37,334 nt of DNA from an uncultured Acidimicrobiales bacterium (GTDB taxonomy: Bacteria > Actinomycetota > Acidimicrobiia > Acidimicrobiales > SZUA-35): positions 1 to 37,334 of the forward strand of contig CALHBU010000248.1 in the NCBI GenBank assembly GCA_937930655.1. The letters run 5' to 3'. The notes under the pieces are model-generated. The model had not been told where the DNA came from. It saw only the letters and a program-made list of their open reading frames with translations, and did not search any database. The translations under genes and the position numbers were made by a program. Of the stretch, positions 26,429 to 37,334 are shown in pieces. How positions within the stretch are numbered: the stretch's first letter is position 1; each line of letters opens with the position of its first letter.

Positions 26429-29020
26429 GTGCGTTACGCGGCTCTTACTCGTGTGCTACCCGGTTCTGTCTTACTTTTGGGCCTGTTGCTGACACTGATC
26501 GTCAGCACCAACGTGGCGGCCAGGAACGAGCGAGCCACTGCCCAGGCCAGGCAGGCCGCCAACACGGTGGTCCTGACCCATGCCAGAGCATCTGAGTCAG
26601 AGCTTCACAACGTTGCTGATGAAGTCGACCGACTGGCTCACTCCCTTCGGGTACTGACCGAGATCGGGGACATCGACATTGAGTCAGCCGTTACTGCTGA
26701 AGTCGACGCACAGCTGTCGCTCGAGCGGCGTTCAGCGATTCTTGCCGTCTTCGTTCAGTCGGGCGTCGATCAGGTCATGATTTTCAGCGACGATTCGATC
26801 GCAGGCAGAGACTTCCCGTTGGTGCCAGCCGGACTGGACTACATCGATGGCGGTATCTGGAACGGCTCGCTCTCGTACGGAATCGACACCAGCAGCCGGG
26901 CGGGCGCCGAGATCGTGATCTTGGTCGATCGAGATGCTCTGCAGGCGGCGATCCAACCATCTTTTGCTGACGGCTTCAGCGCCACCCTTTACGATCTTCC
27001 TGGGCAGGAATCGGGCAGCGAGACGGCAGTTCATGACGGTCTCGAGTCCATCGGCGGTGTTCTGTGGGACCGTCAAGCCGGGAGCGCCGTCTCGCGGCAG
27101 GACGCCGAAGTTCTCGGCCACTCAGTGTCGATCGAGGTAGAGGCCGCGAACGGTGCACTTTGGCTACCGTCGTCAGGGGTGGCGTGGAGCGTGCCGTTGT
27201 TTGGGACGCTGTTATCCCTGCTGGCTGCTGCTGCCGCCATGGTGACCGTCCGTGTTGTTTCCCGGGCCGAACTGGAGCGTGACGAGGCCGACCTCGCTCG
27301 CGATGCCGCTGCCGCGAGATTCCGGGCCAGCTTCGAGCGAGCGCCCATCGGCGTTATCGAGCTGGATGCCAACGGCACCATTGTCGCCGCCAACCCTCGT
27401 TTCGCCAGCCAACTTGGATTCGCAGCCGAAGAATTGCTCGAGACCGAGCTGCTGGATCTGGTCGACGGAGAGGATCGTCCCGAGGCTCAAGAGCTTCTTT
27501 GGGCCATGTTGGAGGGCGAAACTGATGGAGAGCAGACCGAACGTCGCTATCGGAACCGAAATGGGGGCGCCGTCTGGGTTCGAGAGTCCATGAGCGTTTT
27601 GGTCTCCGAAGACGGCTCCCACCATGTGCTGCTCCAGGCCGAGGACGTCAGCGACGAACGACGAGCAAGGGCCGAACTTCACCGCAAAGCGCTCTTTGAC
27701 GACCTCACCGGGCTTCCCAACCGTTCCAATCTCATTGCCAGGGTTAACCGGGCGCTCGACGCCGATCGGCCCGCCGACGATGTTCTGGCTCTGATGTTCG
27801 TAGATCTCGACAAGTTCAAGAACGTGAACGACACACTTGGCCATGAAGCTGGCGACATCCTGCTCATAGAGGTAGCTGAACGCCTCCGACGAGCGTGTCG
27901 AGCCACTGACACCGTCGCTCGTCTGGGCGGCGATGAGTTCGTGGTGCTGTGCGAGGGGCTACCCAACGACGAGGTCGCAAGCCAGACCGCAGAACGATTC
28001 GCAGAGACGCTACGCGAGCCGATGTTCATTCGCGATGTTGAGGTGCCGGTGAGCGCTTCCATTGGTCTTGTCGTTGAAAGCGGGGCCGCCAGCTCCAGCG
28101 ATCTTCTGCGCCAAGCTGATCAGGCCATGTATCGGGCCAAGACGTCGGGCCGGAATCAACTGATCCGCTTCGATATCGACGAGGGCACCCGACGTCGTAC
28201 CGACGAACCGGATACCGTCAGTGCCCACGATCTTCGGTCTGCTATAGACAACGGGCAGCTCCTAGTCCATTACCAACCGGTTGTTGATACCGGAACACTC
28301 GAGGTTGTTGGGTGCGATGCCTTTATTCGATGGGCCCACACCGAGCGAGGCCTTCTAACCGCCGGCGAGTTTCTTCCTGCCGTAGAGAAACACGGCATGG
28401 TCGAGGAACTCGACCGTTTGGCCCTGGCCGAGGGTGTTGCGACTCTGGCCGAGTGGGCCGAAGACGAGCGTTCGTCGTGGTACATGATCTTCAACCTTTC
28501 GCCGGTGAACTACGACAATCGAGAGTTCGCGGGCTCTGTTGCCACACTGATAGAGGAGGCAGGGGTTGACCCATCTCGAGTCATTCTCGAGCGGCACGAG
28601 ACCTCGTTCCTCACTCAAACTCCCACTGCTGTCATCGCCACACGGGAGCTCCGTTCACTTGGCGTGCGGATATCGCTCGATCACTTTGGCACCGGCTCGT
28701 CAACGCTGAACGAAATGTCGATGCTCGAGTTCGATGTTCTGAAGATCGACCGCTCGTTCGTTCGAGATTCCGGCCATCAGCAGACCTACGTTCTTGAGGC
28801 ACTCGGCAATATGGCTGACGCGCTCGACCTGAAGGTAATTGCCGAAGGGATCGAAACCGAGACCGAACTCCGGGTGGTCCAAAAAGCAGGACTGGCCTTC
28901 GCCCAGGGCTACCTCCTCGGCAAGCCGGTGAGTGAGGCTCAGTTCGTGGCCGGCGACTTTGGGAGAGCGGAGAGCGTTGCTGCTCTCAGCTCCTCGGAGC
29001 CGACAGGCTTGGTCAAGTAG
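26429..29020 (+). CDS. Membrane sensor PAS-GGDEF-EAL protein (predicted active diguanylate cyclase, degenerate EAL)
   Basis: Two TMs bracketing an ~230-aa extracytoplasmic region, PAS (FRASFERAPIGVIELDANGTIVAANPRFASQLGF), DDLTGLPNRSNL...RATDTVARLGGDEFVVL, EAL-type C-terminus (VHYQPVVDT...LKIDRSFV...AEGIET...AQGYLLGKP). Confidence 0.93.
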   Translation: MRYAALTRVLPGSVLLLGLLLTLIVSTNVAARNERATAQARQAANTVVLTHARASESELHNVADEVDRLAHSLRVLTEIGDIDIESAVTAEVDAQLSLERRSAILAVFVQSGVDQVMIFSDDSIAGRDFPLVPAGLDYIDGGIWNGSLSYGIDTSSRAGAEIVILVDRDALQAAIQPSFADGFSATLYDLPGQESGSETAVHDGLESIGGVLWDRQAGSAVSRQDAEVLGHSVSIEVEAANGALWLPSSGVAWSVPLFGTLLSLLAAAAAMVTVRVVSRAELERDEADLARDAAAARFRASFERAPIGVIELDANGTIVAANPRFASQLGFAAEELLETELLDLVDGEDRPEAQELLWAMLEGETDGEQTERRYRNRNGGAVWVRESMSVLVSEDGSHHVLLQAEDVSDERRARAELHRKALFDDLTGLPNRSNLIARVNRALDADRPADDVLALMFVDLDKFKNVNDTLGHEAGDILLIEVAERLRRACRATDTVARLGGDEFVVLCEGLPNDEVASQTAERFAETLREPMFIRDVEVPVSASIGLVVESGAASSSDLLRQADQAMYRAKTSGRNQLIRFDIDEGTRRRTDEPDTVSAHDLRSAIDNGQLLVHYQPVVDTGTLEVVGCDAFIRWAHTERGLLTAGEFLPAVEKHGMVEELDRLALAEGVATLAEWAEDERSSWYMIFNLSPVNYDNREFAGSVATLIEEAGVDPSRVILERHETSFLTQTPTAVIATRELRSLGVRISLDHFGTGSSTLNEMSMLEFDVLKIDRSFVRDSGHQQTYVLEALGNMADALDLKVIAEGIETETELRVVQKAGLAFAQGYLLGKPVSEAQFVAGDFGRAESVAALSSSEPTGLVK

Positions 29021-29346
29021 CCGTCCAACCCGTTCACCCGAGGATCGCCGAAGTCTTCTCGGCGGAGCTCGCCGGTGAGAAGGACGAAGGGTGGCCGCGA
29101 GGCGGGGAGTGCCTCGAGCAGGTCTAGGCCGCTTCCTCCCGGCATGATGTAGTCACACAGGATGAGCGCAAGCGCAGGTCGGTACATCGCCAGCGCAGCT
29201 TCAGCGGAGTCGGCTTCCTCAGTAGCGAAGCCTTGTTGCTGAAGCATGTGACATAGGACTAGCCGTGACACCGGGTCGTCATCAACGACCAGAACCGTGA
29301 TGTCGGCTTTTTCGACTCGGTCGCTCCCCATTGCGCCGCTCACCAC
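28939..29346 (-). CDS. Stand-alone response regulator receiver (REC) protein
   Basis: VLVVDDDPVSR, LILCDYIMPGGSG, FVLLTGE, GYLTKPVGSEEL; no output domain. GTG start overlaps the upstream STAS stop; alternative ATG at 29331. Confidence 0.9.
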   Translation of the reverse strand: MVSGAMGSDRVEKADITVLVVDDDPVSRLVLCHMLQQQGFATEEADSAEAALAMYRPALALILCDYIMPGGSGLDLLEALPASRPPFVLLTGELRREDFGDPRVNGLDGYLTKPVGSEELRAATLSALPKSPATN

Positions 29347-29681
29347 TGAGCGAGGAGGTCGTCCATGGATGTGGCGAAGGTGAAGACCTTGTCGAAGCTG
29401 GTGAGTTCGAGGATTCGCTTGGCGTCAGCCGACCGCGGCCAGACCAGACGAAGATCGCCTCCTGCTGCTCTGGCGTCCTTCATGCCCTTGACCAGAGCGG
29501 CCAGCCCGGCTGAGTCGAGAAACTCCAGTTCGCTGAGATCGATGGCGAGGTTCACCTGACCGTCCTGAAGATGGTCGTTGAACAGCTGCCGCAATTCGGT
29601 TGCCTCCAGGGCGTCAAGACGGCCTGACAAACGAATGGTCAGAATGTCGATCTCATGGCTTCCGGTGCGAACGTCCATCAT
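29340..29681 (-). CDS. STAS-domain anti-anti-sigma factor-like protein (STAS-1)
   Basis: IRLSGRLDALEATELRQLF...LAIDLSELEFLDSAGLAALVKGMKDARAAGGDLRLV; Ser of the DS(x)GL motif present. Start shortened from 29774. Confidence 0.9.
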   Translation of the reverse strand: MMDVRTGSHEIDILTIRLSGRLDALEATELRQLFNDHLQDGQVNLAIDLSELEFLDSAGLAALVKGMKDARAAGGDLRLVWPRSADAKRILELTSFDKVFTFATSMDDLLAQW

Positions 29682-29718
29682 GGTTGTTGATCGACCACGT
29701 TCAGCCGCTTCTTTAGCG

Positions 29719-30126
29719 CTAGTGGAACGCGGTTGAGTCGAGCGAAAACCGCAGCGTCCAACGGTTCTGATCATCCTGTCGGCGATAGTCGATTGCGGTG
29801 GCGATCTGCTCGATGATCATGAGCCCATACCCCCGCACCTGTGGTTCGGTCGGTGGAGAAACCTGGTCTGCCTCGAAGGGCAGACCGGAGTCGGTCATCA
29901 CCACAACGAGTTCGTCGCCATCGATATCGGCGCTGAGCTCTAGACCCGACGACTTGGCATGATCAATGCTGTTGTTGGCCAACTCGTGCACCGCCAGCTC
30001 AATTTGGCCCCGGACAGGTGCCGCCACCTCGTCCGGCAACGGGGCGAGACGTTCTGAGAGCCACGGCCCGATAGTCCGGAGTGCCAGGTGGTTCGATTCC
30101 AGAAGAAGGACGCTGGAGTCAGCCAT
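29719..30126 (-). CDS. RsbW-like ATP-binding protein (anti-sigma regulatory factor / HATPase_c_2)
   Basis: QIELAVHELANNSIDHA N-box, DSGLPFEAD, RGYGLMIIEQIAT. Confidence 0.9.
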   Translation of the reverse strand: MADSSVLLLESNHLALRTIGPWLSERLAPLPDEVAAPVRGQIELAVHELANNSIDHAKSSGLELSADIDGDELVVVMTDSGLPFEADQVSPPTEPQVRGYGLMIIEQIATAIDYRRQDDQNRWTLRFSLDSTAFH

Positions 30127-31339
30127 GAGCGTCAGTCTCCACTGCGGTCGCCCGGATGATCAGGAGTGTGCGGTCATCAGTTTGTTCAGCGGTGCCTGCG
30201 TAGGATTCGAGCCGCTCGAACACCAGACCACCGAGTTCGGTTGCGGGAAGATTCGAGTCGACGAGAAGATCAAGCATTCGTTGTTCGCCCCACATCTGAC
30301 CGGCAGGATCCTCTTGCTCAGTGAAGCCATCCGAACTTACGACGAGGCGGGAGCCAGGAGGTGCAGCTAACACTGTGTCCTCGACGGGACCAAGATCGGA
30401 CAGCGGGAGGACGCCGATCGGAGGAACGACCGAGTTTATGGAACGGGGGCCGCTGTCGTCGATGTAGAAGATCGGTCCATGACCGGCGCTGGCGATGGAG
30501 AGCTGTCGAGAACCGGCATCGTAGGAGCCCGCCATAAGCGTCACGAAGAGGCCGGCGTCGGCTAGGTACTTGTGCACCCAGTTGTCAATGGTCTCGAGAA
30601 CAGCGCCGGGACCTGCAGTGCCCGCTGACTGGAAGGCGGCCGTTGCTGCCGAGATCACCGTTGTCATCATCAACGCGGCCGGTAGTCCCTTTCCCGAGAC
30701 ATCTCCGGCAACGAAGTGCAGGACATCGTCCAGCACCGCGAAGGTGAAGAGATCGCCTCCCGCCGCTCGGGCCGGGTCAGAGCGGGCGAAGACGTCGACA
30801 CCGGGTAACTCCGGTCGCCAGGTCGGAAGCGCCAGCTGCGCAAGTTCCGATGCGGTGTCGTGATCCCGCCTGGCAACTGCGCCTTCCAGCGTCTCGTGAT
30901 GGTGGCGGGAGGTTTGTACTGCGCCCAACGCCATGCTGGCGATAGCGGTCAGCAGCTTGTGGTCGGCTGTGCCGAACGTTCGGTTGTCCCGGTGGGCATA
31001 GAGGCTACCGGTGAGCCTCCCGTTGCTCACCTCGACGCTGGTCCTGTTCGGTGCCCTGCCAACGGGTGCCCTGTCGTGGCTCTCGTCGTCGTGACGTCGC
31101 ATCAGTTGATCGGTCGAATGGACCTGGTCACCATCGACGCTGAAGGTCAGGAGGTCAGCGGCCAGGAGATCGCGGGCCTTTTCGAGGATGGCGGCAACGG
31201 CCTCCGACTCGTCCAGCGACTCGGTGGTGATCGAAGCCAACTGGTACAGCACCAGCAATTGCTCGTTGACCTCCACCAGTGCTGCTGTCAGCGACTGCAT
31301 CGGGTCGACATGCGTGGTCATGTCTGACAGTTGGCTCAC
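30119..31339 (-). CDS. GAF-SpoIIE (PP2C-type) serine phosphatase
   Basis: GAF-like N-terminus, FARSDPARAAGGDLFTFAVLDDVLHFVAGDVSGKGLPAALMMTTV, SDGFTEQEDPAGQMWG; GTGA overlap with upstream STAS, 8-nt overlap with the downstream RsbW-like gene. Confidence 0.92.
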   Translation of the reverse strand: MSQLSDMTTHVDPMQSLTAALVEVNEQLLVLYQLASITTESLDESEAVAAILEKARDLLAADLLTFSVDGDQVHSTDQLMRRHDDESHDRAPVGRAPNRTSVEVSNGRLTGSLYAHRDNRTFGTADHKLLTAIASMALGAVQTSRHHHETLEGAVARRDHDTASELAQLALPTWRPELPGVDVFARSDPARAAGGDLFTFAVLDDVLHFVAGDVSGKGLPAALMMTTVISAATAAFQSAGTAGPGAVLETIDNWVHKYLADAGLFVTLMAGSYDAGSRQLSIASAGHGPIFYIDDSGPRSINSVVPPIGVLPLSDLGPVEDTVLAAPPGSRLVVSSDGFTEQEDPAGQMWGEQRMLDLLVDSNLPATELGGLVFERLESYAGTAEQTDDRTLLIIRATAVETDAHG

Positions 31340-31704
31340 TCGATGGTGAAGGCGAGATCGAGCCTTGTTAGCTCGAGAATCACTCGAACCGGGTCAGAAG
31401 GAGAGACCAGGATGAGGTCACCGTCTCGTTCCCGACAGTGCTTCATTCCTCTGACCAGTTCGGCCAGGGCCGTCGAATCGATGAATTCAACCTCGGCGAG
31501 AGAGACCAAGACCCGGGTGGCCGCGCCGCTGCCCGATCCGTCGAGGATCTGGCCCAGGATGGCTCGGAAGGTGTCTACTTCATGGGCGTCGAAGCGTCCG
31601 GCGAGCCGCAGTTCTACGGCATGGCTGGCGGTTGACTGCTCGGATGGAAGTGGGAGTTGCGTGATGTCCACCGGATGACCTCGGATCGACTGCGGGGTAT
31701 TCAC
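31336..31704 (-). CDS. STAS-domain anti-anti-sigma factor-like protein (STAS-2)
   Basis: LRLAGRFDAHEVDTFRAIL...VLVSLAEVEFIDSTALAELVRGMKHCRERDGDLILV; GTG start. Confidence 0.88.
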   Translation of the reverse strand: MNTPQSIRGHPVDITQLPLPSEQSTASHAVELRLAGRFDAHEVDTFRAILGQILDGSGSGAATRVLVSLAEVEFIDSTALAELVRGMKHCRERDGDLILVSPSDPVRVILELTRLDLAFTIE

Positions 31705-31746: not shown

Positions 31747-32547
31747 TCAGCGCTGGTCGATGCGAGGGTGATTGTCCGACCCATATCGACCTCGTAGATC
31801 GTTCCAACGAATGATGGCCAGATCCCGCAGGAACTCAACTGCCACCTTGCCAGCATCGACCTTGGACCCCGGTGCATCTATCCAGGTGACGGGTACCTCG
31901 GTCGTCCGGAATCCGAATTTTCGGGCCAGGTACAGGATCTCCAAGTCGAAGGAGAATTCATCGATCACCTGCCGCCTGAACAGACGCTCAGCAGCGTCGG
32001 CGGTGAACATTTTGAAACCACACTGGGTGTCGGAAACCGGCAGTCGGAACAGGCCCTTGACCAACAAACTGAGTCCACCACTGAACACTTTGCGGGACAG
32101 AGATTTGTTGGCAACGTCGGCCCCGTCGGCGGCTCGGGAGCCGACAACAACGTCGTAGCCGTTTTCCAGTTCGGCTACCAGCGCCTCGAACTGTTCGATG
32201 GGCGTTGACTGATCAGCGTCGGCGAAGAGGATGACCGAGCCTCGGGCCTGGAGCACGCCTCGCCGGACTGCGCTGCCCTTGCCGCCGTTCTGTTCGGCCA
32301 GCAGCAGGCGGAGGTTGACCAGCTCCAGATCTCTAACCAGTTCAGCGGTTGTATCGGTCGAGCCATCGTCGGCCACGATCAGTTCCCACGGCTCGCCCAG
32401 CGAACTCATATGAGTGGCAATGGCGCCGATGGTCGGAACGATCCGCCATTCTTCGTTGTATGCCGGTATGACAACCGAATAGAGGGGCTCAACCTCGAGC
32501 GGGACCTCGGCCCACACTCGGTAGGCGTCCAGGGTTCTGTTGGTCAT
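31747..32547 (-). CDS. Family 2 glycosyltransferase (dolichyl/polyprenyl-phosphate glucosyltransferase-like)
   Basis: YSVVIPAYNEEWRI, LIVADDGSTDTT, VILFADADQSTPIEQFEAL, DVVVGSR, DTQCGFKMFTADAAERLF. Confidence 0.92.
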   Translation of the reverse strand: MTNRTLDAYRVWAEVPLEVEPLYSVVIPAYNEEWRIVPTIGAIATHMSSLGEPWELIVADDGSTDTTAELVRDLELVNLRLLLAEQNGGKGSAVRRGVLQARGSVILFADADQSTPIEQFEALVAELENGYDVVVGSRAADGADVANKSLSRKVFSGGLSLLVKGLFRLPVSDTQCGFKMFTADAAERLFRRQVIDEFSFDLEILYLARKFGFRTTEVPVTWIDAPGSKVDAGKVAVEFLRDLAIIRWNDLRGRYGSDNHPRIDQR

Positions 32548-33887
32548 GTCTGTTCTCCCGGAGTGTGGGTGAGATGGCTGCCCGCAACCGCGGCGAGAAG
32601 CAACGCCATAGCGATCACTTGCATGCGAATGAGATCATCGGTCGCATTGCGGCCGAAGAAGAGCAGGACGGTCTGGAACACGCCACCGGCTAGCAACACC
32701 AGGGCTTCTCGAATCCGGCCTGTTGACAGGTGGTGGCTGACGATCAGGTTGGCCATAGCGAACATGGCAGTAGCAAAGGCGTACCAGGCGAGCGGACTCG
32801 AAACACCGGCAAACTCCGGCCCGAAGACTCGTCCGAGCACGGTGCCGCCCAGGAAATAGGCCCCACCGACGAAGCATGCTCCCATGACCGCCACAACAGC
32901 CAGGCCGCTGTGGAGAAGGCCATCGGTGCTCTCGCCTCGTTCTTTTCGCTGGGCGGCCGCAGGGAACAACGTGGTGGCCACCGACCATGAAAGAAAGAAG
33001 ACCGCCCGGCCAACGAGCGCAATAGCCGCGTAGACACCAGCCGTCTCGGGTTCGAGGAAGCGTTTGGCCATCAGCACGTCGCCGTTGTTGATGATGATTT
33101 GGCCCAACAGCAGAAGAGCAACCGGGAGGGTGTACGAAACGAGCTCGGCTTTGGCGTCGGCTGACATGGTGGGCTTTGGATCCCCACTCCGAGGGCGAAG
33201 CACACCTGTTCTTCTCATTCGGCTGGTAATGAGTTGCACGTGGCCCCACGTGACGATGAACGACGCGGTCAAACCGATGGTCGCTCCGATAACACCGAAG
33301 CCGGCGGCGACCAGGCCGATGCCAAGGGCAACCCGAGCCACCATCTCGACCACGAATGTCCAGGCCAATGGTTGGAACCGCAGCAGCCCCTGGAGGACTC
33401 CGCGGCCCACCGCCTGGGCTAGGTAGAACGGCATACCGAAGCCGAGAATGGCGAACGGCCACGCCGACGCAGAGTTGAAGAACTCGCTCCACCATTGAGA
33501 GCCGAGCATCAAGGCGGCCGCAACCGCGGTGCCGGCAAGGATTGCCATTCGCTGCAGTTTCTGCGCCAGCGCGACCGTGGCCGACGGATCGTTGTTGACC
33601 GCATTGATTCCCGCGAAACGGGCCGCCATCAACTGAAGACTGATAGCGATAGCGGTGACCAACAGCATGATGGTGACCATCAGGTTGGCGTCGGCGAACT
33701 CAGCAGGCGTCAGCCATCGACCAAGAAAAACGTTGAGGAGGTAGTTGCCGGCGTTGGCGACAAGCATCGCCAACCCGAGCGCAGCACCACCCGAGACCAA
33801 CGCCTTGCTATCGCCTCCCGCCGGTGAGTCGCTGGCGGCGGCCGCTTGCTGGCTCGGCCTCGAGCGGGTCCGTAGATCCGTCGTCAT
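32544..33887 (-). CDS. Polysaccharide biosynthesis / oligosaccharide flippase (MATE/Wzx-like)
   Basis: Many TMs; GLAMLVANAGNYLLNVFLGRWLTPAEFADANLMVTIMLLVTAIAISLQLMAARFAG; ATGA overlap with the GT2 gene. Start at MTTDLRT preferred. Confidence 0.85.
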   Translation of the reverse strand: MTTDLRTRSRPSQQAAAASDSPAGGDSKALVSGGAALGLAMLVANAGNYLLNVFLGRWLTPAEFADANLMVTIMLLVTAIAISLQLMAARFAGINAVNNDPSATVALAQKLQRMAILAGTAVAAALMLGSQWWSEFFNSASAWPFAILGFGMPFYLAQAVGRGVLQGLLRFQPLAWTFVVEMVARVALGIGLVAAGFGVIGATIGLTASFIVTWGHVQLITSRMRRTGVLRPRSGDPKPTMSADAKAELVSYTLPVALLLLGQIIINNGDVLMAKRFLEPETAGVYAAIALVGRAVFFLSWSVATTLFPAAAQRKERGESTDGLLHSGLAVVAVMGACFVGGAYFLGGTVLGRVFGPEFAGVSSPLAWYAFATAMFAMANLIVSHHLSTGRIREALVLLAGGVFQTVLLFFGRNATDDLIRMQVIAMALLLAAVAGSHLTHTPGEQT

Positions 33888-33891
33888 CGAT

Positions 33892-35097
33892 TCACGAGTC
33901 AGACGACAGTCGCCCGAGGTGCATGAGATGCCAATCAATCACTTCGGCCATTGGAATCCCGGTTGCTGCCAGATAGTTACGCTCGCCATGTTCAGCATTG
34001 AGGGTGGGGTCGTCCAGAAGTTTGGCGAGCGCATCGGCCAGGCTCATTGCGCTACCCGGTTCGAAATACTGTCCGATGAACCCTTCTTCCTCGATCACCT
34101 CGACGAAGTCTCCAATTGCCGGGAGCACAGCACTCCGGCCATAGGAACCAGCCTGATGAAGCACGCCCGAACTGCCGGTTGTTGACGTGTAGGGGAAGGC
34201 GGTGACCGTGGCGTTTCCGAACAAGCCGGGAACATCGTCTTCCTCCACGTAGCCGGTGAAGGTGACGTTGTCCATGTCCTGACAGCCTTCTTCGACCGAC
34301 GCTAGGTACCCCTTTGAATTGGGGCTATCAGTTCCGGCGATCACCAATTCAAGATCGGTGTAGCCCCGGCCGGCGAGCTCTCTAACGGCATCGACCAGCA
34401 CATCGACCGTCTTGTAGGTGCCCCACTTACCGAAGGCGAGAATCTGCCGTGGCCCCTCGTCGGGCGGTCCGAACTGGGGCTCGTCGATTTCTTCAAAACT
34501 GCCGTGTGGGGCCAGCAGCGCATTCTCGGCTCCGTAGCTCGACCGGAGAAACTCGACGTAGCGGGGAATGGTCAGCGCCACATAGTCGGTCTTGAGAATG
34601 GCGCGGGTGAGTGCCCGACCGGCGAGTTCCATCCCTTTCGCCACCAGCTTTGAGTCGGCGAATCCCGCATCTTGCATGTCGACGTTGTCGGCCAGGTTAT
34701 GAAGAATCACGGCCGTCGTGACGCCGGCTCGTTTGAGCAGGGCCGGAATCAGGAGGCCAAGGCCACCGGCAACTTTGCTGTCCCCAAAAGTGGCGAACTG
34801 AAGATTTACCAACACCGCATCGACATTGGCCTTCTTGACTGCTCGGACCAGACGAAACGGATTGGTCAGTGCGTTGAACTCCCACGAAACCACCGCGTCG
34901 ACCTTGGCGGCAGCCGTGGGGTCAGCCAAGGTGATCGGTGGGCCGGCATCGGTCTCATCGGCAAAGACGACCACGCTGTCGACCGATTGGTTGGAAGCCA
35001 AATGGTTGACCAGGTGGAAGCCGAACTCGTTCAGGCTGTTTCGGCCCGGAGGAAAGGCGGTGATGACGCCGATCCGACGTGGTGTAGCTCTGTTCAT
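33892..35097 (-). CDS. Family 4 (GT-B) glycosyltransferase
   Basis: RIGVITAFPPGRNSLNEFGFHLVNHL, AVILHNLADNV, ILAFGKWGTYKTVDVLVDAVREL, FTGYVEEDDVPGLFGNATVTAFPYTSTTGSSGVLHQAGSYGR. Confidence 0.88.
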   Translation of the reverse strand: MNRATPRRIGVITAFPPGRNSLNEFGFHLVNHLASNQSVDSVVVFADETDAGPPITLADPTAAAKVDAVVSWEFNALTNPFRLVRAVKKANVDAVLVNLQFATFGDSKVAGGLGLLIPALLKRAGVTTAVILHNLADNVDMQDAGFADSKLVAKGMELAGRALTRAILKTDYVALTIPRYVEFLRSSYGAENALLAPHGSFEEIDEPQFGPPDEGPRQILAFGKWGTYKTVDVLVDAVRELAGRGYTDLELVIAGTDSPNSKGYLASVEEGCQDMDNVTFTGYVEEDDVPGLFGNATVTAFPYTSTTGSSGVLHQAGSYGRSAVLPAIGDFVEVIEEEGFIGQYFEPGSAMSLADALAKLLDDPTLNAEHGERNYLAATGIPMAEVIDWHLMHLGRLSSDS

Positions 35098-35207: not shown

Positions 35208-36104
35208 TCACCGGTTGGTTGGTAGGACGAGGGTCGCAACGGTGTGCCCACAGCCGTCGTTGGTGATGGTGAGCCTGCCATCGAGTGCCTCGGCCAGTTG
35301 TTGGCACAAACCGAGGCCCAGTCCGAGGCCTTCAGAAATTCGAGCCGCACTTGCATCAAGCATGGTGAAGTCGTCAAACAAGCCTTCGATGCGGTCGGCA
35401 TCGATGCCGGGTCCGGCATCGGTTATCTCAAGCCGCAGTTCCTCCCCCGAGATTGAGATGTCGAGGTTCACCGTTCCTCGATCGCCGTGGGTCACCGCGT
35501 TGTCGAGCAACTCATCCAGAATCTGAAGAACGCGACGTTCATCGAGGTTCACGACCCGTGCCTCATGAGAGGAGCTCACCGCCAGCAGATGACCGGTACG
35601 CATGGCCGTCAGTTGCCACCGTTTGCGAATCGAATCGGCGAGCTCACCTAGCTCGACAGGCTCAAGCTCTGGCGTGACATTGCCACTACCGAGTTCTACT
35701 AAATCGAGGAGGCGGGTGAGTAGTTGTCGGAGCCGGTCAGCTGAACGTGTAGCTGTCGCCAGATAGTCGGCAGCCTGCGTCCCTTCGACATGGGGTGTGA
35801 GAAGTTCCAGCATGCCGAGAAGTCCATTGAGGGGGGTGCGGGTTTCGTGACTCAAGGTCGACAGAAAACGTTCTCGGCTGCTGGAGGCGACGGCTAACTC
35901 TCGAAGCGTTTGTTCAAGGTCGGCGGTGCGTTCAGCTACCCGTCGATCGAGCTCCTGATTCACCAGCCACAGTTCCCTCATTCCGCGGTCGGCGATCTCT
36001 TCGGCCTCCCGCCGGGCCCTCCGTTCGCGTTCAAGCCGCCGCTCCAAGCGAGCGATGCTACGGGCAGCGTCGGCTGCTTGATCAGGGCTCTCGGTACTGG
36101 TCAT
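35208..36104 (-). CDS. Soluble sensor histidine kinase, putative H-NOX partner
   Basis: No TM; coiled-coil N-terminus (ERRLERERRARREAEEIADRGMRELWLVNQELDRRVAERTADLEQTLREL), H-box FLSTLSHETRTPLNGLLGMLELL, N-box ILDELLDNAVTHGD, DAGPGID, EGLGLGLGLCQQLAEAL; 7 nt downstream of the H-NOX stop. Confidence 0.92.
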   Translation of the reverse strand: MTSTESPDQAADAARSIARLERRLERERRARREAEEIADRGMRELWLVNQELDRRVAERTADLEQTLRELAVASSSRERFLSTLSHETRTPLNGLLGMLELLTPHVEGTQAADYLATATRSADRLRQLLTRLLDLVELGSGNVTPELEPVELGELADSIRKRWQLTAMRTGHLLAVSSSHEARVVNLDERRVLQILDELLDNAVTHGDRGTVNLDISISGEELRLEITDAGPGIDADRIEGLFDDFTMLDASAARISEGLGLGLGLCQQLAEALDGRLTITNDGCGHTVATLVLPTNR

Positions 36105-36111
36105 GCCATCG

Positions 36112-36660
36112 CTAGTCAGCGATCGCCATTTTCACGGCTCGTACGTCGAAGACGGTGATCTCCTCACCATGGCCGCTCACGATGCGTACGTCGACGTCCT
36201 CGCCGAAACGCTGGCCGGCACCGAGGATGAGGCCTTCGGCCAGGACTCCGAGCCGTCGACTCGATCGATAGGTGATTCTGAGTACATCGTCTGGCCGATC
36301 TTCGAATTCGAACTCCGGTGGCTTGGCATCGGGGTGAAGCTTTAGAACCTCGGGATGAATGATGTCGTTGACTCGTCGGAGGAAGTCGTGAGTGCCAGCA
36401 GCTTCGTCCACCAGTTCGGGGTACCGGTCGGCCAGATGGGGAAAGGCATGTTGGCCGAGGGTCCGCACCAGTTCGTCAGGCCCAAGCCCTGTCATGGGGC
36501 AGGCAGCACCGACCAGGGCTGTCAGGTCGGAATCCGGATAGCTGCCCAAGGAGGTGTAGTGGCCGTCGATCTCGGCGGCCTCCAAGAGGTCGTCCCACAC
36601 ATCCTCTGAGTACAAACCAACGACTGCTTCTTCAACTGCGTTGAAAATGACGCCCTTCAT
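36112..36660 (-). CDS. H-NOX heme nitric-oxide binding domain protein
   Basis: MKGVIFNAVEEAVVGLYSEDVWDDLL, YPDSDLTALVGAA, FLRRVNDIIHPEVLKLHPDAKPPEF (proximal His), YRSSR (YxSxR heme motif), GLILGAGQRFGEDVDV. Start supported by an AAGGAG Shine-Dalgarno 5 nt upstream (plus-strand CTCCTT 36666-36671). Confidence 0.93.
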   Translation of the reverse strand: MKGVIFNAVEEAVVGLYSEDVWDDLLEAAEIDGHYTSLGSYPDSDLTALVGAACPMTGLGPDELVRTLGQHAFPHLADRYPELVDEAAGTHDFLRRVNDIIHPEVLKLHPDAKPPEFEFEDRPDDVLRITYRSSRRLGVLAEGLILGAGQRFGEDVDVRIVSGHGEEITVFDVRAVKMAIAD

Positions 36661-36724: not shown

Positions 36725-37334
36725 TCATTGATTGTCTGTGAGTAGACGCTCACGGCGGTCAGTCAGGCTGGTAGCGGCCGAGTCGGCCATGACGTCCAAT
36801 TCAGCGGCCAGAGTCTGGAGTTCGCCAGGATCTGCAGTCGTGGTCCGACTAGCCATCTCAAGGGCGGCACAGTTCTGAGCGAGATCGGTTGCTCCCAGCA
36901 TCAATGCCGTTGATTTGAGTGTGTGGGCCGAGCGGGAGATGGTCACGTGGTCGTCGTCGCCAAGAGCCTCGTGGATGACGGTTCGGTGCCGGGTGAGCTC
37001 GTCGAGGAACGTGCTGATCACCGTTGCGACCACCGACCGGTCGCCCAGGTCGGCTACCAGTTGATCGATGGTCGCATCGTTTATCGACCCCGTGCTCTCG
37101 GCGCCGGATGGCTCAGATCCCCACTTGCTGATCATGTCGCCGAGATCGGTCAGAGAAATAGGTTTGGCCAGATAGTCGTTCATGCCGGCGTCGAGGCAGG
37201 CCTCCCGGTCGCCGGAGGTAGCGCTGGCGGTCGTGGCGATGATCACCATCGGGTTGTCTCCGGTCTCGTTGCGCCTGATACGGCGGGTGGTTTCGAGACC
37301 GTCTATGCCCGGCATGTGCCAGTCCATCAACACC
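36725..37334 (-). CDS. REC-HPt protein, probably the C-terminus of a hybrid histidine kinase; truncated at the right window edge
   Basis: REC phospho-acceptor region LMDWHMPGIDGLETTRRIRR, YLAKPISLTDL; HPt motif ISRSAHTLKSTALMLGATDLAQNCAALE; reading frame open to the edge. Confidence 0.88.
   Translation of the reverse strand, partial: VLMDWHMPGIDGLETTRRIRRNETGDNPMVIIATTASATSGDREACLDAGMNDYLAKPISLTDLGDMISKWGSEPSGAESTGSINDATIDQLVADLGDRSVVATVISTFLDELTRHRTVIHEALGDDDHVTISRSAHTLKSTALMLGATDLAQNCAALEMASRTTTADPGELQTLAAELDVMADSAATSLTDRRERLLTDNQ

Follow-up and report, generated by a model that had tools for sequence, protein, structure and literature searches.

Gene content of the locus

The window, by which we mean the whole stretch of 37,334 nucleotides that was analysed, is the complete contig C248 of a metagenome-assembled genome (MAG) that is 81% complete. 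One end of it is occupied by a run of eleven genes on the minus strand, in which an H-NOX gene lies between two genes for histidine kinases. The features of this run are listed below in the order of reading, with the E-values of the supporting models in brackets.

36725..37333, minus: C-terminal part (REC + HPt) of a hybrid histidine kinase (Pfam Response_reg 2.8e-15, Hpt 3.8e-14)
36112..36660, minus: H-NOX (heme NO/O2-binding) protein, 182 aa (Pfam HNOB 1.2e-36)
35208..36104, minus: soluble orthodox histidine kinase, 298 aa (Pfam HisKA 2.1e-16, HATPase_c 4.3e-21)
33892..35097, minus: GT4-family glycosyltransferase (Pfam Glyco_trans_1_4 6.2e-18)
32544..33938, minus: polysaccharide flippase-like membrane protein (Pfam Polysacc_synt_3 4.3e-11); 47 bp overlap with the GT4 gene
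31747..32547, minus: GT2-family glycosyltransferase (Pfam Glycos_transf_2 8.1e-28); 4 bp overlap with the flippase gene
31336..31704, minus: STAS-domain protein with a DSTAL phospho-acceptor-type motif (Pfam STAS 2.6e-13)
30119..31339, minus: SpoIIE-type PP2C serine phosphatase (Pfam SpoIIE 5.4e-37)
29719..30126, minus: HATPase_c_2 serine-kinase/anti-sigma-like protein (Pfam HATPase_c_2 9e-15)
29340..29681, minus: second STAS-domain protein with a DSAGL motif (NCBIfam ant_ant_sig 4.1e-17); start set at an internal ATG of the open reading frame 29340-29774
28939..29346, minus: stand-alone receiver, REC (response-regulator models, best 1.1e-12)

The run spans 8.4 kb and its genes overlap or are closely spaced, the largest gap being 110 bp. 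After the soluble kinase the same-strand order is GT4, flippase, GT2, STAS, SpoIIE, HATPase_c_2, STAS and REC; the gene at the position of the stand-alone REC in the related locus L003 is likewise matched by Pfam Response_reg. None of the eleven genes encodes a DNA-binding regulator (SypG-like activator), and a sigma factor was likewise not observed among them. A PAS-GGDEF-EAL gene on the plus strand (window 26429-29020) is convergent with the run and, as called, shares 82 bp with the REC gene at 28939-29346.

The soluble kinase, whose gene starts 7 bp past the H-NOX stop codon, is composed of an N-terminal charged coil (RLERRLERERRARREAEEIADRGMRELW), a HisKA domain (His86) and a HATPase_c domain, and has no receiver of its own. 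Its coil is strongly conserved in the orthologues and resembles the coils of H-NOX-adjoining kinases in Vibrio and Pseudooceanicola. The gene for the hybrid kinase, upstream of H-NOX, is truncated at the end of the contig; its complete orthologues (L003, L005, L007, L008 and L011) have the composition PAS-HisKA-HATPase-REC-HPt and measure about 650 aa. The REC Asp and the HPt His of the hybrid kinase are conserved.

The H-NOX protein and its distal pocket

The H-NOX reading frame starts with an ATG at 36660, which has an AGGAG-type ribosome-binding site close upstream, and its stop codon ends at 36112. The Pfam HNOB match covers residues 2-159 of the protein and positions 1-162 of the 163 in the profile (126.6 bits versus a cut-off of 25.5), and none of the NCBIfam models matches. 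Homologues that are 70-84% identical were recovered from ten other Acidimicrobiales MAGs in the species collection, which together with the E-values excludes a chance match to HNOB. In a phmmer search against the PDB the top match was S. woodyi H-NOX (6ocv, 4.7e-24), and the nearest solved chains are the H-NOX proteins of S. woodyi and S. oneidensis. A structural comparison corroborated the family assignment made in the sequence-only reading: with the AF2 model (mean pLDDT 83) as query, each of the 50 matches listed by Foldseek was a chain of H-NOX or sGC, and the TM scores of ~0.8-0.88 against many H-NOX structures indicate that the H-NOX fold is present. That reading had also pointed to the proximal His (IIHPEV), the YRSSR and the PP as conserved, and an alignment with the Caldanaerobacter H-NOX bears this out (heme ligand His102; Tyr131, Ser133 and Arg135; and Pro115, respectively). 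The protein is a genuine member of the H-NOX family with an architecture like that of known nitric-oxide sensors. It stands alone with its 182 aa and is not fused to a membrane chemotaxis receptor. The Pro after the heme His (HPEV) was considered as an actinobacterial signature and rejected, since it is found in a Bradyrhizobium H-NOX too.

The residues of the distal pocket were read from an alignment with the O2-binding H-NOX of Caldanaerobacter (Thermoanaerobacter) tengcongensis (Tt), the chain sequence of which was checked. Trp9, Asn74 and Tyr140 of Tt correspond to Val, Ala and Leu in the window H-NOX. The Leu at the Tyr140-aligned position had been predicted before; the argument that was built on it, namely that lack of this hydrogen-bonding Tyr goes with discrimination against O2, fared both better and worse than proposed. 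Considering that Trp9 and Asn74 are replaced besides Tyr140, the O2-stabilising network is absent and the pocket lacks a distal hydrogen-bond donor, a stronger case than was claimed, and with all three residues replaced NO selectivity is a sensible prediction. Nevertheless, the lack of Tyr140 discriminates weakly, because Tyr occurs in 0 of 50 actinobacterial H-NOX (rows having the Tyr140 column, the misaligned L014 row being excluded), because Tyr140 has been published as a mark of the membrane-bound, chemotaxis-fused H-NOX of obligate anaerobes only (PMC8738867), and because a Tyr added to full-length sGC brought no gain of O2 binding (PMC9592903). Within the same 50 sequences Leu takes this position in 38, and Trp9 and Asn74 likewise occur in none. 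The state without Tyr140 is the default, and NO selectivity of the window H-NOX is what one would predict. Most likely the protein is a soluble ferrous-heme protein that binds NO as a five-coordinate nitrosyl and excludes O2, its heme loading and choice of ligand being what we infer here.

Several other actinobacterial H-NOX (e.g. L013, L034, L043, L056 and L058) carry three Cys residues at ~138/163/171, presumably the zinc/redox motif that PMC8738867 discusses. Members of the window clade lack this motif and have one Cys or none, the single Cys of the window H-NOX being Cys54. The motif is also present in a Bradyrhizobium H-NOX, so that its absence from the window clade looks like a loss.

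Source organism and distribution of H-NOX

The actinobacterial origin that had been suspected from the letters is supported by two observations: the ten close H-NOX homologues all come from MAGs named 'uncultured Acidimicrobiales bacterium', and the cystathionine beta-synthase encoded on the same contig is nearest (83%) to that of a same-genus genome, above the other relatives searched. The contig is actinobacterial and belongs to the Acidimicrobiales; mis-binning was considered and rejected on the basis of this 83% identity to a same-genus genome. Moreover, a genome from this order that consists of one 4.8-Mb contig (L034) has the same hybrid kinase-H-NOX arrangement with the matching kinase coil downstream, and therefore the occurrence of H-NOX in Acidimicrobiales is not a binning artefact.

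HNOB matches were found in 10 of 397 genomes of the phylum, 16 of 395 of the class and 23 of 39 of the window's family, numbers that represent samples and not censuses and of which the class count takes in one match below the curated cut-off. In the tree, the window H-NOX falls in a clade of 26 rows (support 99/94) made up mostly of same-family sequences. The earlier remark that no characterised actinobacterial H-NOX is known holds as far as characterisation goes, but the proteins had already been noticed: a 2022 review names members of the Acidimicrobiaceae, Nocardioidaceae, Micrococcaceae and Mycobacteriaceae with H-NOX (PMC8738867). Its authors also state that they knew of no report of a putative NO-sensing H-NOX from a Gram-positive species, and they describe the field as open (PMC8738867). 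Considered alone, the window H-NOX adds a new member to a known family, in a lineage that this review already lists (PMC8738867).

Some individual homologues deserve mention. The H-NOX nearest to that of the window (84%; L002 7823-8359 / L018, G079) belongs to a genome that was assigned to a different family and whose cystathionine beta-synthase is just 68% identical, which may reflect horizontal transfer or a mixed bin. In a divergent H-NOX (L039, G032; 32-34% identical to the window) the proximal-His column holds a Glu and the His lies one position earlier, which is either an alignment shift or an altered heme ligand. The H-NOX match of L014 (G062) lies within an 827-aa open frame that represents a fusion protein or merely an open upstream frame.

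Conservation of the gene neighbourhood

The gene neighbourhood, which was missing from the sequence-only reading, is where most of the information lies; the sensor is of an ordinary kind, and what is newer is the gene block around it. Among 29 H-NOX loci of relatives (L012-L040), 22 have a REC-HPt hybrid directly upstream and a histidine kinase directly downstream (one of these, L029, ends at the contig end before the soluble kinase), three more have the histidine kinase downstream only, and four (L013, L014, L016 and L039) have neither. The downstream order GT4 ... STAS, SpoIIE, STAS is identical in L003-L008 and L010, in the parts that could be matched. In eight loci a divergent open reading frame of 1061-1308 aa adjoins the hybrid kinase (L003 4553-8206, minus; same position in L002, L004, L005, L007, L008, L010 and L011); the L003 copy has no Pfam match.

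The association between H-NOX and GT4 was inventoried in the 39 genomes of the family. Both genes were present in 22 genomes, neither in 16, and H-NOX alone in one; GT4 thus occurred in 22 of the 23 genomes with H-NOX and in 0 of the 16 without it (Fisher p=4.5e-10, without phylogenetic correction). The cut-off that was used to define GT4 presence (E=1e-60) is not critical, as there were no matches between 1e-60 and 1e-115. H-NOX and GT4 were concordant in all six genera in which the presence of the two varies (6/6), although such co-occurrence carries less weight for neighbouring genes, which a single deletion can take out together. The two are found on different contigs in some relatives of the genera g10 and g4, which implies that a single operon is not universal; the co-occurrence in these genomes is the stronger evidence.

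A putative route from nitric oxide to surface polysaccharide

Starting from the observed domains, conserved catalytic residues, gene order and family-wide co-occurrence, we lean, with restrained confidence, towards a role in which NO-bound H-NOX would restrain a phosphorelay that controls the making or export of surface polysaccharide, via the kinases and the partner-switching genes. The sign of the regulation, the route of the phosphate and the output are deduced from domains, residues and context. Binding of NO to H-NOX would most likely alter how strongly the soluble kinase, whose gene lies 7 bp downstream, phosphorylates itself, and by analogy the effect would be inhibitory. Because the soluble kinase has no receiver of its own, the REC-HPt part of the upstream-encoded hybrid kinase probably takes over its phosphate, and the HPt would hand it on to an output receiver; the stand-alone REC that closes the run is one such possible output of the phosphorelay. 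The STAS/PP2C/HATPase partner-switching genes and the glycosyltransferase and flippase genes of the run are the likely outputs, so that NO would tune the making or export of surface polysaccharide, with H-NOX probably signalling to the cell when its outer polysaccharide is to be produced. A copper nitrite reductase as an internal source of NO was looked for and dropped, since the genome (the 81% complete MAG) contains no match.

The SpoIIE, STAS and HATPase_c_2 genes in the same run are canonical anti-sigma regulators, and one of the STAS proteins is recognised by the NCBIfam model ant_ant_sig. These genes could thus direct the NO switch formed by H-NOX and the kinases towards a general stress or sigma-factor response, with the glycosyltransferases as mere neighbours. 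We regard such an output as rather unlikely, given that GT4 tracks H-NOX throughout the family, even with the two on different contigs, and that a sigma factor was not seen in the run. Signalling through cyclic-di-GMP might be suspected as well, as many proteobacterial H-NOX act on enzymes of its metabolism (PMC8738867), GGDEF-EAL genes lie near some actinobacterial H-NOX (L013, L046 and L047), and the GGDEF-EAL gene at 26429-29020 converges on the run. However, that gene is on the opposite strand and beyond the run's end, and its position is not conserved, no GGDEF-EAL match having been found in the loci L002-L011; on the latter ground the link was rejected, and of all readings we consider it the least probable.

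It is also improbable, to a degree well beyond that of the stress response, that O2 or CO is the ligand sensed by the H-NOX, or that the protein no longer holds heme and serves solely as a partner of a kinase or as a redox sensor. Absence of Tyr140 alone is no proof of O2 exclusion (PMC9592903), and some H-NOX can respond without heme via a zinc/Cys site (PMC8738867), but the set of heme ligand residues is intact here and the three O2-stabilising residues of Tt are gone. Redox sensing through a zinc/Cys site was rejected for the window H-NOX, which has Cys54 only, the 138/163/171 motif being missing from the whole window clade.

The reading of an NO-controlled polysaccharide output provides a concrete, conserved gene set in Acidimicrobiales and a testable route from NO to polysaccharide. 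More tentatively, as a possibility that we rate below an even chance, the locus may constitute a self-contained actinobacterial NO-to-exopolysaccharide unit, in which H-NOX acts on a receiver-less kinase and this in turn on a PAS-bearing hybrid REC-HPt, while the run also contains the partner-switching and polysaccharide genes. The literature searched, with subscription papers mostly outside it, yielded no description of such a split between a receiver-less kinase and a hybrid REC-HPt together with partner-switching and polysaccharide genes. If true, Vibrio-type wiring from NO to biofilm would also exist in Actinobacteria, with the kinase work divided over two proteins, the unit would combine NO with a second input, and the system could be the first in Actinobacteria for which an NO response of H-NOX is shown.

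Comparison with known systems

The nearest worked-out parallel is the HnoX-HahK-SypF-SypG/SypE-SypA system of V. fischeri, to which the window locus appears to correspond in function. In that organism HnoX acts as an inhibitor of HahK, which passes its signal on via the HPt of SypF as well as via LuxU, and the syp polysaccharide is controlled by partner switching of SypE/SypA (PMC12369376, PMC10120452). Both systems have an H-NOX with an adjacent kinase and an HPt-bearing hybrid kinase, and at the level of domain types they share STAS and PP2C/serine-kinase partner-switching parts and polysaccharide genes. HahK, however, has a receiver of its own, whereas the adjacent kinase in the window does not. 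Moreover, hnoX-hahK is a two-gene operon, while the kinases, partner switch and sugar genes of the window lie in one run; SypE is a single serine kinase-REC-phosphatase, where the window has separate SpoIIE, HATPase and REC proteins; and a transcriptional activator like SypG has no counterpart within the eleven-gene run.

The H-NOX/HnoK pair of Shewanella oneidensis offers the closest fold (4u99, TM 0.88, 29-30% identity) and the same placement of H-NOX beside a histidine kinase, but its published output consists of cyclic-di-GMP enzymes, reached via a phosphorelay and HnoD, and no such genes are conserved at the window locus. The actinobacterial H-NOX of sequence-network group 3 (PMC8738867) belong to the same phylum, with Acidimicrobiaceae named among them, and share the conserved proximal His; the conserved 3-Cys (zinc/redox) motifs that are described for groups 2-4 in PMC8738867 are, in contrast, lacking in the window clade. 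The O2-binding H-NOX of Caldanaerobacter tengcongensis has fold and heme motif in common with the window protein at 22% identity, yet it is fused to a chemotaxis receptor and possesses Trp9/Asn74/Tyr140, where the unfused window protein has Val/Ala/Leu.

Finally, on plasmid p202 of Pseudooceanicola algae (L064, 2574-7323) genes for H-NOX and an HK-REC-HPt protein are divergent from REC-SpoIIE, STAS and HATPase genes. One HK-REC-HPt hybrid here replaces the two kinases of the window, and GT4 and flippase genes are absent within the stretch read. The likeness lies in the adjoining H-NOX, coil-bearing HK, REC-SpoIIE, STAS and HATPase genes, an arrangement that supports a recurring link.
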